Assembly: GCA_013215805.1 (NCBI GenBank)
Contig: JABSQM010000014.1
Location: forward strand, 186,001 to 250,000
Reading direction: 5' to 3'
Source of the DNA: Piscirickettsiaceae bacterium
Lineage (GTDB): Bacteria > Pseudomonadota > Gammaproteobacteria > Nitrosococcales > Methylophagaceae
DNA length: 64,000 nucleotides
Under the pieces are notes generated by a model, which worked only from the letters and a program-made list of their open reading frames with translations, was not told the DNA's origin and searched no databases. The position numbers and the translations under genes are program-made. Shown piece by piece: positions 9,289-61,346 of the stretch; positions within the stretch are counted from its first letter, which is position 1; each line of letters starts with the position of its first letter.

Positions 9289-10257
9289 TTAATAGGTTCG
9301 TTTTATAGAAAAATCGGCTAATTTCAATAAAGCATCTTTATAAATTGAGTCAACAATGACAGACAATGCAGCTTTGGCATTATTTACTTCCCGCTCTGCT
9401 ACTTGCAATGTATATTCGACTGCACCAGTCTGATGAATGATGGCAATAACTTGATCGATCTTATCGCGTTGTCCCTCTTTAATAGCAGTACGAATAATAT
9501 GAACCTGATCCTTGACACCATGCTGCATAGCATATATTAGAGGCAGTGTAGGCTTACCTTCAGATAGATCATCTCCAATATTCTTACCTATAGATTTACT
9601 GGAAATATCATAATCTAATAAATCATCCATTAATTGAAAGGCACTACCCACATGCATTGAATATTTAGTAATGGCTGTTTCGATATCAGCCGAGGAATTC
9701 GTAATTACAGCACCTAACCGACCCGCAGCTTCGAATAATTTAGCCGTCTTATGATGAATAACTTCCAAATAACGCGCTTCAGTGGTGTCAGCATCATGAC
9801 AGTTAAGCAATTGAAGAACCTCCCCTTCGGCGATAACATTGGTAGTATGGGACAGGATTCTCATTAATTGCATTGAATTCATTTCCACCATCATCTCAAA
9901 TGAACGGGTGTAAAGAAAATCACCTACTAATACACTAGCCTCGTTACCCCATAAATTATTAGCCGTTTCACGACCACGGCGCATGTCAGAGTTATCAACA
10001 ACATCATCATGCAATAGAGTCGCAGTATGAATAAATTCAATAATGGTAGCTAAATTAATATGATAATTTCCTTGGTATCCACAAGCACGAGCACATAATA
10101 TGGATAATGTAGGCCGTAAACGCTTTCCACCACCATTAATGATATAACGTCCTAATTGATTGATTAACACTACTTCAGATTGCAACCGCTCCTGAATCAT
10201 TGTGTTAACTGATACCATATCTCTTTCAATTAAAGTATGAATGGATTTAATATCCAC
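9289..10257 (-). CDS. ispB: all-trans polyprenyl (octaprenyl) diphosphate synthase
   Basis: Builds the long prenyl tail of ubiquinone or menaquinone by adding isopentenyl diphosphate to farnesyl diphosphate. The 322 residues have the family layout: GGGKRLRP near residue 43, first aspartate-rich motif LLHDDVVDNSDMRRG near 82-96, VGDFLYTRSFE, HHKTAKLF, and second motif LMDDLLDYD near 208. The tail length cannot be read reliably from the sequence. It is divergent from rplU with about 125 bases between, the standard gammaproteobacterial arrangement. Its allylic substrate would come from IspA, encoded near 57 kb. Confidence 0.96.
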   Translation of the reverse strand: MDIKSIHTLIERDMVSVNTMIQERLQSEVVLINQLGRYIINGGGKRLRPTLSILCARACGYQGNYHINLATIIEFIHTATLLHDDVVDNSDMRRGRETANNLWGNEASVLVGDFLYTRSFEMMVEMNSMQLMRILSHTTNVIAEGEVLQLLNCHDADTTEARYLEVIHHKTAKLFEAAGRLGAVITNSSADIETAITKYSMHVGSAFQLMDDLLDYDISSKSIGKNIGDDLSEGKPTLPLIYAMQHGVKDQVHIIRTAIKEGQRDKIDQVIAIIHQTGAVEYTLQVAEREVNNAKAALSVIVDSIYKDALLKLADFSIKRTY

Positions 10258-38507: not shown

Positions 38508-39530
38508 TTAGGTTCTGTCGTTTATACATCCGACTATATCTTTAATTAAACCCGGGCCATGATATATCAATCCGCTATAAATTTGTACTAAACTCGCACC
38601 AGCATCTATTTTTAGTTGTGCATCACAACGCGACATAATACCACCAACAGCAATTATAGGAAAATCTTCTGGTAAGGCCCGACTGAATTTACGTATCATA
38701 TCTGTTGATTCAGAAAAAACAGGACGACCACTAAGGCCGCCAGCCTCATCCCAATGCTTTATACCTATCACACTGTCACGAGATATCGTAGTATTGTTAA
38801 CTACTACTGCATCAATTTTATATTCAACAAAAGACTGTGCCAACTGCTCAATATCATTATCTTCAAGATCTGGCGCTATCTTTACAGCTATAGGTATATA
38901 ATGTTGATAGCATTCTTGTAACCTTAAATGTTCTTGTTTAAGTTGATCCAACAAACTATCAAGTGACTTACCAAACTGTAAAGCACGGAGCCCAGGCGTG
39001 TTGGGAGACGAAATATTAATAGTTATATAGTCAGCATAAGGATATACCCTGTTCAAACCAATCAAATAGTCCTCAACTATTTTTTTTTCTGATGTGTCAA
39101 AATTTTTACCGATATTAATTCCCAATATGATATCTTTTTTCACTTTTTTTACTCGTTTAACTACATAGTCGACTCCTAGATTATTGAACCCCATTCGATT
39201 AATAATTGCCTCTGCTGCGGGCAAACGAAATAACCGTGGCTTAGAGTTGCCCTGCTGTGGTCTTGGAGTTACTGTGCCAATCTCAACGAAGCCGAACCCT
39301 AGAGATGACATAGCATCAATGTAATCACCATCTTTATCAAAACCAGCAGCTAATCCAACCGCATTAGGAAATGTCAATCCCATTATATCGATGGAAGATG
39401 CCGGATATTTTTGATAGAACAGCGATGATAAGCCGCTCTTCGCAATACAATTTAAACTTTGTAAGCCTATGTAATGTGATTTTTCCACATCGAACTTGAA
39501 TATTAAGTTTCGTATCAGGTCGTATAACAT
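38508..39530 (-). CDS. pyrD: dihydroorotate dehydrogenase, class 2
   Basis: FMN enzyme of pyrimidine synthesis that oxidises dihydroorotate to orotate and passes electrons to quinone at the inner membrane. 340 residues. The N-terminal membrane-facing helix (MLYDLIRNLIFKFDVEKSH) marks class 2. Then NAVGLAAGFDKDGDYID near 55, GFVEIGTVTPRPQQGN, NRMGFNNLG, ITINISSPNTPGLRALQ near 172 and PIIAVGGI near 293. Its ATG immediately follows the stop of the DUF2797 gene (TAG then ATG), so the two are probably cotranslated. Confidence 0.97.
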   Translation of the reverse strand: MLYDLIRNLIFKFDVEKSHYIGLQSLNCIAKSGLSSLFYQKYPASSIDIMGLTFPNAVGLAAGFDKDGDYIDAMSSLGFGFVEIGTVTPRPQQGNSKPRLFRLPAAEAIINRMGFNNLGVDYVVKRVKKVKKDIILGINIGKNFDTSEKKIVEDYLIGLNRVYPYADYITINISSPNTPGLRALQFGKSLDSLLDQLKQEHLRLQECYQHYIPIAVKIAPDLEDNDIEQLAQSFVEYKIDAVVVNNTTISRDSVIGIKHWDEAGGLSGRPVFSESTDMIRKFSRALPEDFPIIAVGGIMSRCDAQLKIDAGASLVQIYSGLIYHGPGLIKDIVGCINDRT

Positions 39531-53317: not shown

Positions 53318-55532
53318 AAAAGCAAAAATTTATCTTAAAAGATTATTTTTTTTGTCTGAGATCCCCCTTTTTATTGGCAAGCCGCCATATCCTTGTTGCT
53401 TATAAATTTGCATTATCATATTTTTAGAAATTTAGGTTGCTTGTGCCTAGGGTACGCTCAATAATGCCTCATAAAAAGTTAATATTGAAATTATAAAGAC
53501 TTAAGGTATAGGTTGTAAATCCCAGTGTAAGTACAATAACCCCACTTAATCATAAAGCCACGCCTTCAAATATGACAATTGCCGACAATTAAACATGTTG
53601 CTAAATATATTTAGGCTTCTTTAAGAAATATTTAGACCTTGCCAAGGTAACAGACTAAGGACAATTGTTGTCGTAATTTTTGTTACGTTGGCACGGCTAA
53701 ACATATTGTCCAAGTGGCACCAATAACGACTCCTATTTAAATTGAAAATAGCCTTCCAATGAAGGTTCAATAAAAACGATATGAACGAGGAGCAAAATAT
53801 TTATTCTCCTAAAATAATATAATTAGGCATGATTTTATTGTTTTTCAAGTTAGTAGATTTTTGTAGAATAAATTAAAATATAATTTGTAAATATATTTTG
53901 TAATCCTTAAGCAACCGGTAATAAATAAAATCAGCATATCTTGCCAAAACATAAAAAGTCATCCTTTGTGAAAATATTATCAATTAATAATGTACGGCAG
54001 TAGATTTTTTTAATGCGGGAAAATAGAGTCAGATTGTGATATTTGCAATATAAGCATCCTCAATTTTCTTATGTTTTATATAATTCGAAGGTCAATAAAT
54101 CATGTCATAAAATTTAAGATGCCCTGAATTATATGAACTTTATAAAAAATCATATTTAGCTACTACATTAAAGATGTTGGAACTATGATCTATTATAATA
54201 ACACTCCATGATTTACATCCAATGATGAAGGCATAAATGATAAATTTGCATCAGTGTAGTGATCTTGATTTGACAGTATAAAATCTAAATTAACTGCATA
54301 TATTATATGTTACATTCTTGAATCATGAATATCATCATCAAATGAAAATATTTTCATATTCGTAATATTACCGCCAAGCCATCTGCTAGGAAACTATTGG
54401 TAGTGTGTGTTATATATATAAATATGTGCTAATTAAATCAAAAAATATTTTGTAAATTTGGTAGTTACATCATCTTAATCAATTAATTTTAGTCATAAAT
54501 ATCATGATTCTAATAATGTTATATATTGCTGAAACTCTAAGAGTTATCATATAACAATAATTAATGTACATACAATATAGGCATTTACTCAAAGTAAATA
54601 ACAAGCTATAAACTAATATTTATTGTGTAACAAATTAAATCCACTAAACCATCTCTATTTTTCTGGTAGATATTATTCATGATCATACATTGATATTTAT
54701 CAATCTAAATATTATCAATATGTTTTAGGACTTGATCTTCTCCATAGGCATACAACTATTAATAATCCACTTGACAGTTTTATGAAAGATCATATCAGGA
54801 ATTTAGACTGTGGAATAAAATTAAAACTTGCACATTATAGAATACATAGTTATTTCTGTGAGCCAGTTTAAAATTACCCTAAACAATTATTGCTAAATAT
54901 ATATTTCATCCTAGTAGGAGTCATCATTCGGTTATTTCATTAATAAAATATTACGTTAGTTACTAAATAATTCCGAAAGAACTGATAATTCATTGTTAAA
55001 TAAATTTGCTGTTATTGGTAAGACTTCCTGAAAATAAATATCCCAATAGTCAATGATTTAAAATATTTTTGCCTAGAAGCCATGAACATTAAAAATCAAC
55101 CATTAAACTTTGCAAGAGATTCAAATTAAGAAATTACCCCTTGCTATATCACTTTTGGTAGAAATACCTAAATAATTATTTATTGTTTCACATTATGTAG
55201 AATAGTTATATCCATGATATTGCAAATAGTTACACATCATCATATTAATACTCATAAATTTGAATAATATATTATAAATAACATATATTATAATAGCTGA
55301 TCTAATCAAATAAATAATCTCGATGAGATTTAAATAAAGTTTAAAACATGTTTGTTATCTAAGAAGTGCCAAGGAATTGGTATGTGCTATCCACTGTTGT
55401 GCACAGCATAACATGCTGTCTTATATCTAAAATAATAATCATCATTAAATGATAATTTTAAAAATTGAATCGGACACAACAAAATTTAAAAACCAATTTA
55501 AAACATCTATATATCAGAACAGCATTCAGGCA
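53318..55532. other. 2.2-kb gene-poor region between groES and ribF
   Basis: No assignable gene. A plus-strand stretch near 54700-54860 stays open for about 50 codons (GLDLLHRHTTINNPLDSF) without start or ribosome site. fxsA, which precedes groES in Pseudomonas, could not be recognised. Short palindromes occur (CAGCAT/ATGCTG near 55407-55421). Probably the remains of one or two genes. Confidence 0.4.
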
Positions 55533-55925
55533 CTAAGTGAAATAAGCATGTGCTTGTCGACAATCTTCGTTAATCTGATTTATTAATTGTTTCATATCAG
55601 AAAAATTCTGTTCGTCCCTTAACTTATGTAGGAAATTCACTCGTACATATTTGCCATAAATTTCATCAGAAAAATTAAATAAATGCACTTCTAACATGAT
55701 TTTTCTTCCATTGAATGTAGGCCGAATACCTAAATTAACAACGCCTCTGACTGGCTCACCTTTAATACCATATAGCAAAGCTACATAGACTCCTTTTATG
55801 GGTATTGTATATCTGCATAAATATATATTAGCTGTTGGAAACCCCATGGTACGACCTATTTTATTTCCATGGGAAATACGTCCACTGATGCTGTACGGTC
55901 TCCCCAATAATCTATTAGCCAACAT
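55533..55925 (-). CDS. ribF: riboflavin kinase domain, intact remnant of RibF
   Basis: C-terminal half of the bifunctional RibF protein, which phosphorylates riboflavin to FMN. 130 residues from an ATG that has AGGTG seven bases upstream (MLANRLLGRPYSISGRI). All riboflavin-kinase landmarks are kept: HGNKIGRTMGFPTANI near residue 19, KGVYVALLYG, GVVNLGIRPTFNG, EVHLFNFSDEIYGKYV and FLHKLRDEQNF. The frame is open upstream only to a TAG at 56022-56024, and beyond that the FAD-synthetase half is wrecked (separate entry). Whether this short frame is translated alone to make FMN, or is just the less decayed end of a dead gene, is undecided. Confidence 0.7.
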   Translation of the reverse strand: MLANRLLGRPYSISGRISHGNKIGRTMGFPTANIYLCRYTIPIKGVYVALLYGIKGEPVRGVVNLGIRPTFNGRKIMLEVHLFNFSDEIYGKYVRVNFLHKLRDEQNFSDMKQLINQINEDCRQAHAYFT

Positions 55926-56445
55926 TAAATCACCTGATAGTAATGATCTACGAATTAGGGCACTACTTACACGGATCTGATCAACTAAAAATGTATTAAT
56001 ATCGAATGATTCAAGATCAAACTAATTGCTATATTCATACAATGAAGCATGATCTCCTTGTCTCTACTTTACCAAAATGAAAATCATTTCCCAAGACTAG
56101 GCAACGCACATTGTAACTATTAATTAATAATTTTTTAACAAAAAACTGCGCAATCATCTGTGCTAATTCTCCATTAAAGTACAACACACATCTTTGCCCT
56201 ACAAAGTAGATATCCGATGTCCCAATTTTTCCCCATATCTACTGATACACACCGAAGACTCATTAAAAAAACAGGAAATCATCTGGCTTGTGACTCAAAG
56301 GTAATAACTAAAATCGATAACCCTAATTAATTGTCCTTCTGTACCAGTTTATTTAATATCAATTGATGACTCGAATAAACACCATAAAAATCAACAATGG
56401 CAAATGAACATGTTTGAGATATGAATGTAATATTAGAGAAAATAA
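55926..56445 (-). pseudogene. ribF: ruined FAD synthetase half of ribF
   Basis: Upstream of the kinase half the minus strand still shows the FMN adenylyltransferase domain in order. FAIVDFYGVYSSHQLILNKLVQK near 56420-56350 stands for the family ATIGNFDGVHLGHQ, with the nucleotide-binding HLGH destroyed. LVITFESQAR is near 56310, MCVVLYFNGELAQMIAQFFVKKL near 56190, RCLVLGNDFHFGK near 56090, and IRVSSALIRRSLLSGDL joins the kinase half. At least three stops and several frame changes interrupt it. The intact protein would be about 310 residues. Confidence 0.88.
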
Positions 56446-56760
56446 AATATATTTTATACATAATAGTCTAATATTCACAGATAAATAAATTTAAGATATA
56501 TAAATAATTTAACAGGCAAGTATATTGGATAATTATTAAGATAATTAAGGGTAGATCGTTATTGAGTCCAACTCTGATACTAACAATAGCAGTGAAAATA
56601 AATTATAATTATTCAAAATAATGCCTATAATGAACTGGATGTAGAGTATCTACATTTTGAAAATCAGTGCATTCTATCAATTACTTTACAAGCTAGTTAA
56701 AATTGATAAATAAAAAGTGCATATGCTGTAAAAATTTAGTTAATTAATATTAAAAATATT

Positions 56761-57684
56761 TTGGATTTAAGCCCTACACAAACTGTGAATAATAATTTTT
56801 TACTTCATAAATGGATGCTTCAACACCAACAACGCATAGAATCTGTTCTAAATTGCCAATTGTTAGATCATGAAAACAGGAAAATATCAGTTCAATTGCT
56901 TGCTGCTATGCGTTATTCAACTCTAAATGGCGGAAAACGTTTGCGTGCTCTGTTAGTATATGCTACTGGTAAAACATTAAATGCTGATTTTAATACGTTG
57001 GATGCACCTGCAAGTGCCGTCGAAATGATCCATACTTATTCATTGGTCCATGATGATATGCCAATAATGGATAACGACGATTTGCGCCGCGGCCGTCCCA
57101 CATGTCACAAGGCCTATGATGATGCCACGGCTTTATTAGTTGGAGATGCCTTACAAACATTAGCCTTTGAAAGTTTATGTGATGATAAGTTAACCTCTAT
57201 TCAACAAAATAAAATGGTCAAGACCTTAGCACAACGTTCTGGCGTTTATGGCATGGCTAGTGGTCAAGCTATTGATCTGGAATCGACCGATAAGACACTT
57301 GATCTAGCATCATTACAAACCATGCATGAACTCAAAACAGGCGCCTTATTTCAAGCCAGTGTACGACTGGGGGCTTTGGCATCAGGAGATATTGACGATC
57401 ACAGCTTATCTAAACTAGATCACTATGCCTTCTGTCTTGGTCTAGCCTTCCAAGTACGAGATGATATACTTGATGTAATCGCAAATACAGATACCTTAGG
57501 TAAAATTAAAGGTGCTGATATTGCATTAAATAAACCTACTTATCCAGCCTTAATAGGTTTAGCACAAGCACAACGAAAAGCAGATGATTTAATTAAGAGA
57601 GCACAAATTTATCTTAATGATTTATCCTATGATACTCATATTCTTTCCGCATTAGCTCAATTTGTCATACGACGTTCTAACTAG
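56761..57684 (+). CDS. ispA: farnesyl diphosphate synthase
   Basis: Condenses isopentenyl and dimethylallyl diphosphates to geranyl and farnesyl diphosphate. 307 residues if read from the TTG at 56761; an ATG at 56815 would give 289. Motifs: LNGGKRLRALLVYATG near 58, first aspartate motif LVHDDMPIMDNDDLRRG near 97, second FQVRDDILDV near 233, GKIKGADIALNKPTYPAL near 247. The CLD-type spacing of the first motif fits the short-chain bacterial enzyme. xseB and dxs, usual partners, are not visible. Confidence 0.95.
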   Translation: MDLSPTQTVNNNFLLHKWMLQHQQRIESVLNCQLLDHENRKISVQLLAAMRYSTLNGGKRLRALLVYATGKTLNADFNTLDAPASAVEMIHTYSLVHDDMPIMDNDDLRRGRPTCHKAYDDATALLVGDALQTLAFESLCDDKLTSIQQNKMVKTLAQRSGVYGMASGQAIDLESTDKTLDLASLQTMHELKTGALFQASVRLGALASGDIDDHSLSKLDHYAFCLGLAFQVRDDILDVIANTDTLGKIKGADIALNKPTYPALIGLAQAQRKADDLIKRAQIYLNDLSYDTHILSALAQFVIRRSN

Positions 57685-59589: not shown

Positions 59590-60156
59590 ATGCCATTTAA
59601 ATCAACACTCATACGTCATCAATCCATGGTTGAAGGATTATTTAAACTTGATATTCAAGTCAATAAATTGCTTGAAAGAATAATTAAATGCCTGGATCAG
59701 GGGAATAAAATTATATTTTTTGGAAATGGTGGTAGCGCAGCAGATGCACAACATTTAGCTGCTGAATTTATTGTACGTTATCGAAAACAACGCTTACCAC
59801 TAGCGGCAATGGCTCTAACGACTGATACGTCAATTATTACAGCTCATGGTAATGATTATAGCTTTGCAACAATTTTTGACCGTCAGATCTTAGCTTTAGC
59901 CAAGAAAGGTGATATTGCCATTGGTTTGTCATCCTCAGGAAATAGTGACAATGTCATGAATGGCATTAAGAGAGCACAGCAGATAGGTTGTTGGACCTGC
60001 GCATTCACTGGTGCAAGTGGTGGCAAATTATTTAACTTGGCAGATGACTGTATTCGCCTCTCTACAGAGGAAACGGCTCGTGTACAGGAAGGTCATCTCA
60101 TAGTTGGACATTGGTTGTGCGAAGCCTTGGACGATCGAATCAGCAGAACCCAATGA
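59590..60156 (+). CDS. gmhA: phosphoheptose isomerase
   Basis: SIS-domain enzyme turning sedoheptulose 7-phosphate into D-glycero-D-manno-heptose 7-phosphate, the first step of ADP-heptose synthesis for LPS. 188 residues. FFGNGGSAADAQHLAAEF near residue 46, GLSSSGNSDNVMNGI near 117, TGASGGKL and EGHLIVGHWLCE near the end. The closely related DiaA replication protein is an alternative, but hldE in the same window supports GmhA. The stop overlaps the next start by ATGA, so translation is coupled. Confidence 0.9.
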   Translation: MPFKSTLIRHQSMVEGLFKLDIQVNKLLERIIKCLDQGNKIIFFGNGGSAADAQHLAAEFIVRYRKQRLPLAAMALTTDTSIITAHGNDYSFATIFDRQILALAKKGDIAIGLSSSGNSDNVMNGIKRAQQIGCWTCAFTGASGGKLFNLADDCIRLSTEETARVQEGHLIVGHWLCEALDDRISRTQ

Positions 60157-61346
60157 GTATGAAAAATTATAGCGCTGACGTTGTTATTATAGGAGCTGGA
60201 ATAACTGGTTTATGGATACATAATTGTTTAAATAATATAAACATCCACTCCCTATTATTAGAAAATAATTCTATCGGAAATGCGCAAACTTTAAGTTCGC
60301 AAGGCATTATCCATGGAGGTACAAAATATGCTATTGACGGCATTCTTTCTAAAGCTACACAATCAATTAGTGACATGCCAGCCCGATGGAGAGCCTGTCT
60401 CAATGGTAAAGGAGACATCGATTTAAGAGGAGTAAGGATATTCACAAATCATCAATTGATGTGGTCAAAAGACCGACTATCTTCTAAAATGGCATCATTT
60501 TTTTCTAGCAAAGCACTTCATAGCCGCGTACAGATAATAAATGAGCAATTGCGACCCGAAATGTTTCGACATATAAACTATACATCCCAATTGTACAGAC
60601 TCAATGAACCAGTTTTAGATATCGTTAGCATGATCAGATGTTTGGTTACACCTTGGCAAGAACGCATTATGAAAATTTCTAATGATAGTAATATTACCTG
60701 GAGTCAAAAAAAAAATAAGGTGCAATCACTTACACTTGACCGTAAAATACATATAGCTGCACAGCAATTCGTTTTAACTGCTGGTGAAGGTAATGAAGCT
60801 TTACTGACATCATTAGGTATGAAAAAACCTGCCATGCAACGCAGGCCATTGCGAATGTTGTTATGTAAATCCACAAATAAAGCTCAAATATTACCTATTA
60901 TTTATGCTCATATATTGATATCTAGCTGGAAACTTACGACCATAACCAGTCACTTTGATGAGAATGACAACATCATCTGGTATATTGGTGGCAGTATTGC
61001 TGAACTAAGCATTGGCGACACACCTAAACAACTCACTGCTAAGGCAGAAATCTTATTAAATAATCTTATGCCTTGGTTAAAATTACCAACTTTAAAATGG
61101 GCAGCCCATACAGTCAATCGTGCGGAGCCTAAGCAATCTACATTCTCAAGACCTGATACATCCTTTATTGAATCCATAGATAATATACACATTGCTTGGC
61201 CGACCAAGTTAGCGTTAGCTCCTAATCTTTCTGATAAAGTAATAACAGTGATTCTAAGGGACATAAAGCCAACTGAACATGAAAAACTAATTAATGTGCC
61301 CGCTGTAACGATCGGAAAACCATTATGGGATAGAGCTTTCAAATGA
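60153..61346 (+). CDS. FAD-dependent oxidoreductase (DAO family)
   Basis: 397 residues from the ATG overlapping the gmhA stop (ATGA); a second ATG two codons on is possible. The N-terminal FAD-binding dinucleotide fold reads ADVVIIGAGITGLW, then GTKYAIDG, where DAO/glycerol-3-phosphate-dehydrogenase-like proteins contact the isoalloxazine ring. The mid-region FVLTAGEGNEALL resembles the family's second FAD strand. Substrate unknown. Its coupling to gmhA upstream and an aldo/keto reductase downstream suggests a small carbohydrate or sugar-derived metabolite, but this is inference. C-terminal residues are divergent from well-known members. Confidence 0.75.
   Translation: MSMKNYSADVVIIGAGITGLWIHNCLNNINIHSLLLENNSIGNAQTLSSQGIIHGGTKYAIDGILSKATQSISDMPARWRACLNGKGDIDLRGVRIFTNHQLMWSKDRLSSKMASFFSSKALHSRVQIINEQLRPEMFRHINYTSQLYRLNEPVLDIVSMIRCLVTPWQERIMKISNDSNITWSQKKNKVQSLTLDRKIHIAAQQFVLTAGEGNEALLTSLGMKKPAMQRRPLRMLLCKSTNKAQILPIIYAHILISSWKLTTITSHFDENDNIIWYIGGSIAELSIGDTPKQLTAKAEILLNNLMPWLKLPTLKWAAHTVNRAEPKQSTFSRPDTSFIESIDNIHIAWPTKLALAPNLSDKVITVILRDIKPTEHEKLINVPAVTIGKPLWDRAFK

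Follow-up and report, generated by a model that had tools for sequence, protein, structure and literature searches.

The locus described here raises the question of whether a cell whose ribF gene has decayed in one of its two enzymatic halves can still make its own FAD. In the window, which is the whole stretch of DNA that was analysed (64,000 nucleotides), ribF has a broken FAD synthetase (FMNAT) half and an open riboflavin kinase (RFK) half. An earlier note on this DNA had interpreted the gene as a bifunctional enzyme split by erosion and had proposed that, provided the kinase half is still made, the cell would produce FMN but no FAD of its own.

The ribF gene of the window, hereafter copy A, retains its RFK half as a 130-aa stand-alone open reading frame on the reverse strand (55533..55925), recognized by PF01687 and by residue retention. 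The Pfam Flavokinase domain (PF01687) spans this frame over its entire length with 142.8 bits against a cut-off of 19.6 and is the sole domain in it; with no FMNAT domain, the product has the makeup of a monofunctional riboflavin kinase. The alignment revealed GRTMGFPTAN, GVY, NLGIRPT, and LEVHLF to be retained, giving copy A both an RPT loop and a complete GxPTAN motif, with the PTAN of the ATP/Mg and flavin site at 55827..55838 (reverse strand). The ATG at 55923-55925 is the earliest ATG, GTG, or TTG of the RFK frame and lies 4 nt after a Shine-Dalgarno-like AGGTGA (55930..55935, reverse strand). This AGGTGA stems from the linker Gly-Asp codons (GGTGAT), and because relatives have GGTGAT at the equivalent place, the ribosome site is plausible without being clearly newly evolved. 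A promoter scan at copy A returned fewer matches than shuffled sequence and was uninformative. We infer from the frame and its start region that copy A would be translated from the internal ATG as a stand-alone RFK module.

The FMNAT half of copy A (55926..56461, reverse strand) is a pseudogene with three in-frame stops and three indels. A codon-by-codon comparison with the paralogue described below placed the stops near 56327, 56279, and 56022 and identified a 2-nt insertion at ~56271, a 1-nt deletion at ~56233, and a 1-nt insertion at ~56067. Furthermore, the HLGH nucleotide-binding motif aligned with YSSH in copy A (56366..56377, reverse strand), which together with the stops and frameshifts leaves copy A without the HxGH and SSTxxR motif set of the FMNAT module of type I FAD synthetases (FADS). 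Judged from these lesions, FMNAT function has certainly been lost in copy A. Of the residues strictly invariant in the 35 nearest relatives, copy A kept 31/54 in the FMNAT half; for the RFK half the count was 41/43 (Fisher p = 1.4e-5). Since both halves belong to one gene and have had equal time to decay, this difference indicates that selection acted on the RFK half. These results bear out the earlier note in its account of a kinase half with motifs, ATG, and ribosome site, of an N-terminal half that had lost HLGH and gained stops and frameshifts, and of decay by domain with the kinase half under selection. Its description of the kinase half as pristine was slightly overstated, as the motifs are kept on a long branch with many variable positions that differ from those of relatives.

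A complete second ribF, which the earlier note itself had regarded as incompatible with its reading, was looked for in the rest of the genome and was found on another contig (C1:60545-61489, forward strand), outside the window. This gene, copy B, encodes 314 aa free of stops, and the stretch of copy A that can be aligned with it (55499..56539, reverse strand) matched L066:10456-11503, L066 being C1:50001-70000, with 64.6% identity. The FMNAT half of copy B is open and intact in its motifs, scoring 163 bits with HLGH, GDDF, and SSTRIR present, and thus carries the HxGH and SSTxxR motifs expected of type I FADS. Copy B also passes the NCBIfam cut-offs for ribF (TIGR00083, 257.7 versus 184.35), and its RFK half is in frame and full length, with PF01687 matched over 1-124/124. 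The flavokinase score of 91.5 bits is the lowest among the full-length matches in 58 genomes, the next being 98.5. This low score is due to changes in the flap and the RPT loop, as the alignment reads HGDKRGRTMGFPTANIHL in relatives and YVDKLSIIERIQTLNIHV in copy B. Most of the glycine-rich flap, which binds the nucleotide, is gone: GxxxGRxxGFPTAN has become VxxxSIxxRIQTLN, so that PTAN is now QTLN, and ANVGVRPT of relatives has become AYVGVQST, turning the RPT loop into QST. Among the residues lost are some, including the flap Gly and the Pro of RPT, that are conserved in 53/53 relatives. Copy B still has the Thr and Asn of PTAN (within QTLN), GVY, and the catalytic Glu of LEVxLF.

Phylogenetic and neighborhood analyses indicated that the two copies arose locally. 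RFK loci were matched in 52 other Methylophagaceae genomes, with a single locus in 51/52; in the remaining genome (G071), ribF is cut by contig ends. Copies A and B were sisters with UFBoot support of 100 in the FMNAT DNA tree and 96 in the RFK DNA tree, and in the former the pair lies beside G001 and G002, which belong to the same genus. The RFK protein tree on its own did not resolve the placement of the copies because both rows are long, and the DNA trees were used instead. With sisterhood in both halves, relatives that are single copy, and a position beside their own genus, copies A and B are lineage-specific duplicates of one ancestor. The presence of two copies and their sisterhood are direct observations, as are the broken FMNAT half of A and the intact FMNAT motifs of B. 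In total, the genome has two RFK loci and a single FMNAT locus that is intact. Relatives carry ribF divergent from ispA-dxs-queD-folE2. Copy A retains ispA from this arrangement as its divergent neighbor (56761..57684, forward strand; the sole copy in the genome) and is flanked by groEL and a SIS-domain gene, which are widely separated in G001. Copy B is flanked by folE2 on one side and by a conserved gene of 346 aa on the other, as in the ancestral neighborhood, and having kept both of these flanks it may occupy the original site. A segment containing at least ribF was duplicated, with flanking genes later lost from one site or the other. We also noted that dxs, adjacent to ispA in relatives, was not found in the genome and that a second polyprenyl synthase besides ispA is kept (9289-10257).

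The reading that we favor and consider likely is duplication, degeneration, and complementation, with copy A kept for RFK and copy B for FMNAT. One ancestral bifunctional ribF was duplicated in this lineage and left two descendants. Copy A, having lost FMNAT, would convert riboflavin to FMN as an RFK module started from the internal ATG, and copy B would convert FMN to FAD as an FMN adenylyltransferase. The RFK domain of copy B stays in frame, probably because it helps the FMNAT half to fold, to assemble, or to bind flavin. Copy B would probably be without useful RFK activity, and both copies would now be needed.

Residue counts distinguished the two RFK halves. Near-universal residues were defined as those conserved in at least 95% of the RibF proteins of 53 single-copy relatives within the class; by this measure, copy B lost 9/29 RFK residues and copy A 1/29. 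Relatives lost 0 to 4, save one distant outlier with 9 that belongs to another family and is divergent in both halves. Copy B lost only one of the 37 near-universal FMNAT residues. Similarly, of the residues invariant in the 35 nearest relatives, copy B changed 4/55 in the FMNAT half versus 13/43 in the RFK half (p = 0.006), and the 13/43 RFK changes in copy B compare with 2/43 in copy A (p = 0.003). These counts show directly that A selectively retained RFK residues and that B lost near-universal ones. Codon analysis of the RFK halves gave branch omega values of 0.28 for copy A and 0.24 for copy B, with no difference between them. The RFK half of copy B rejected omega = 1 (2dlnL = 5.4) and thus remains constrained. 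Because synonymous sites were saturated and omega did not differ between the copies, we did not use omega to support the split; as far as the sequences indicate, the contrast between A and B is in which residues changed rather than in overall rates.

The constraint on copy B also fits an alternative explanation, namely that copy B is still bifunctional, its RFK being divergent yet active, and that copy A is simply decaying and has so far escaped damage to its RFK half by chance. The full-length open frame, the TIGR00083 score, the retained Thr, Asn, and Glu, and the RFK-half omega of copy B are all compatible with this explanation. Others have assumed the natural motif variants PTLN and KTAN to be active (PMC2972280), and with Thr, Asn, and Glu kept, copy B may retain some weak RFK activity. 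However, a merely decaying copy A does not account for the 41 RFK invariants kept against the 31 of 54 kept in its FMNAT half, which argues for selection on its RFK half, and an active RFK in copy B is at odds with the loss of residues found in every relative and with the lowest score of any full-length match. We therefore regard a bifunctional copy B as unlikely, albeit the most serious competitor to division of labor between the copies.

The genome as a whole bears on the second alternative. The assembly is 1.15 Mb in 27 contigs with a completeness of 100 and a contamination of 0.04. In L066, open reading frames of at least 100 aa cover 39% of the sequence; in the window they cover 63%, versus 93% in related genomes. 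These low values reflect advanced genome erosion. The second alternative holds that two related, co-resident symbiont lineages are combined in one bin, each with a single ribF broken in a different half. The location of the copies on different contigs of the draft assembly and their DNA identity of only ~63% would fit this idea, but lineages so distant would duplicate most genes unless their gene sets were complementary. Against such duplication, contamination is low at full completeness, groEL and ispA are single copy, ribF is the only window protein with a homologue on the examined 100 kb of C1, and GC3 is identical (0.29) on both contigs. The 16S rRNA gene, which is often absent from metagenome bins, was not found in the assembly and thus could not help to show how many organisms are present. 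Altogether, a mixed bin appears very improbable. The earlier version, with a single eroded ribF in a cell that makes FMN and imports FAD or obtains it through another type of enzyme, holds if the window alone is considered, and we reject missing FAD synthesis as barely credible because the FMNAT half on C1 is intact at 163 bits with HLGH and SSTRIR; it could hold only if copy B were inactive or came from a different organism. What survives of that version is the splitting of a bifunctional enzyme by erosion, as two reciprocally eroded copies instead of one copy with a lost function.

Returning to division of labor between the copies, ribH is present in the genome, so riboflavin is probably made, and copies A and B would jointly cover the remaining steps to FMN and FAD. 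Flavin enzymes encoded nearby in the window include a quinone-dependent dihydroorotate dehydrogenase (38508-39530), which is an FMN enzyme, and a DAO-family FAD oxidoreductase (60111-61346). Studies of the Corynebacterium enzyme (CaFADS) make the proposed roles plausible. An isolated CaFADS RFK module with residues 1-182 deleted has activity like that of the full enzyme (PMC5544777), and since the copy A start is equivalent to about CaFADS residue 177, a protein initiated at 55925 would be the naturally occurring counterpart of this deletion product. Mutating the RFK module of CaFADS alters how FMN and FAD bind to the FMNAT site (PMC5428420), and such an influence could explain why copy B keeps its RFK domain in frame and folded. 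Counting against the split are the Thr, Asn, and Glu kept in copy B, the similar omega values, and the separate draft contigs. We are evenly divided over a broader proposal, in which a bifunctional housekeeping enzyme of an essential pathway is splitting, through reciprocal, domain-wise decay of its duplicated gene, into two enzymes with genes of their own. Erosion would then have raised the number of genes that this pathway requires even as the rest of the genome shrinks, and copy B would retain its dead kinase domain as a subunit-like, structural or regulatory part of the FMNAT enzyme.

The locus is of interest because it offers a probable intermediate stage, open to testing, in the splitting of a bifunctional enzyme. 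The case for subfunctionalization through complementary loss normally rests on end states; in this genome, both copies can still be read, including the dead half of A and the damaged half of B. A duplicate also persists in a shrinking genome, where loss would be expected. Two cautions follow for annotation: one decayed gene is no proof of a metabolic loss such as that of FAD synthesis, and passing a family score is no proof of function, as annotation would call copy B a bifunctional RibF and copy A a pseudogene.

Separate RFK and FMNAT enzymes are already known in a few bacteria, and the unusual part here is reciprocal damage caught in progress. According to a 2010 survey, most prokaryotes have one bifunctional FADS, four species have FMNAT and RFK as separate proteins, and Alistipes alone has a PTAN-less FADS type II plus an RFK (PMC2972280). 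These cases and the plant RibF proteins provide precedents for the proposed end state. A limited search of the open-access literature yielded no case in which two local copies had decayed reciprocally and both had left readable remnants. A and B derive from a bifunctional FADS type I (RibF, as in CaFADS and TmFADS); in copy B, both domains remain in frame, and neighboring genomes preserve the ancestral single gene beside ispA. The present system differs from FADS type I in having two copies, A without a working FMNAT and B without near-universal RFK residues. Copy A resembles monofunctional bacterial RFKs such as RibR of Bacillus subtilis (PMC2972280) in having an RFK module and no FMNAT. Unlike them, it is what remains of a bifunctional gene and still has the FMNAT pseudogene attached, and it would be the main RFK of the cell instead of a supplement to an intact RibF. 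Copy B resembles the FADS type II of Alistipes putredinis, which has a separate RFK, and to the plant chloroplast RibF1 and RibF2, for which RFK activity was undetectable (PMC2972280): FMNAT is intact (HLGH and SSTRIR kept), PTAN is lost (QTLN), and RFK would come from another protein. Those systems are long established and have a C-terminal module ~40 to 60 residues shorter, whereas the module of copy B, at 314 aa for the whole protein, is full length, and its RFK partner would have arisen from ribF itself by local duplication.
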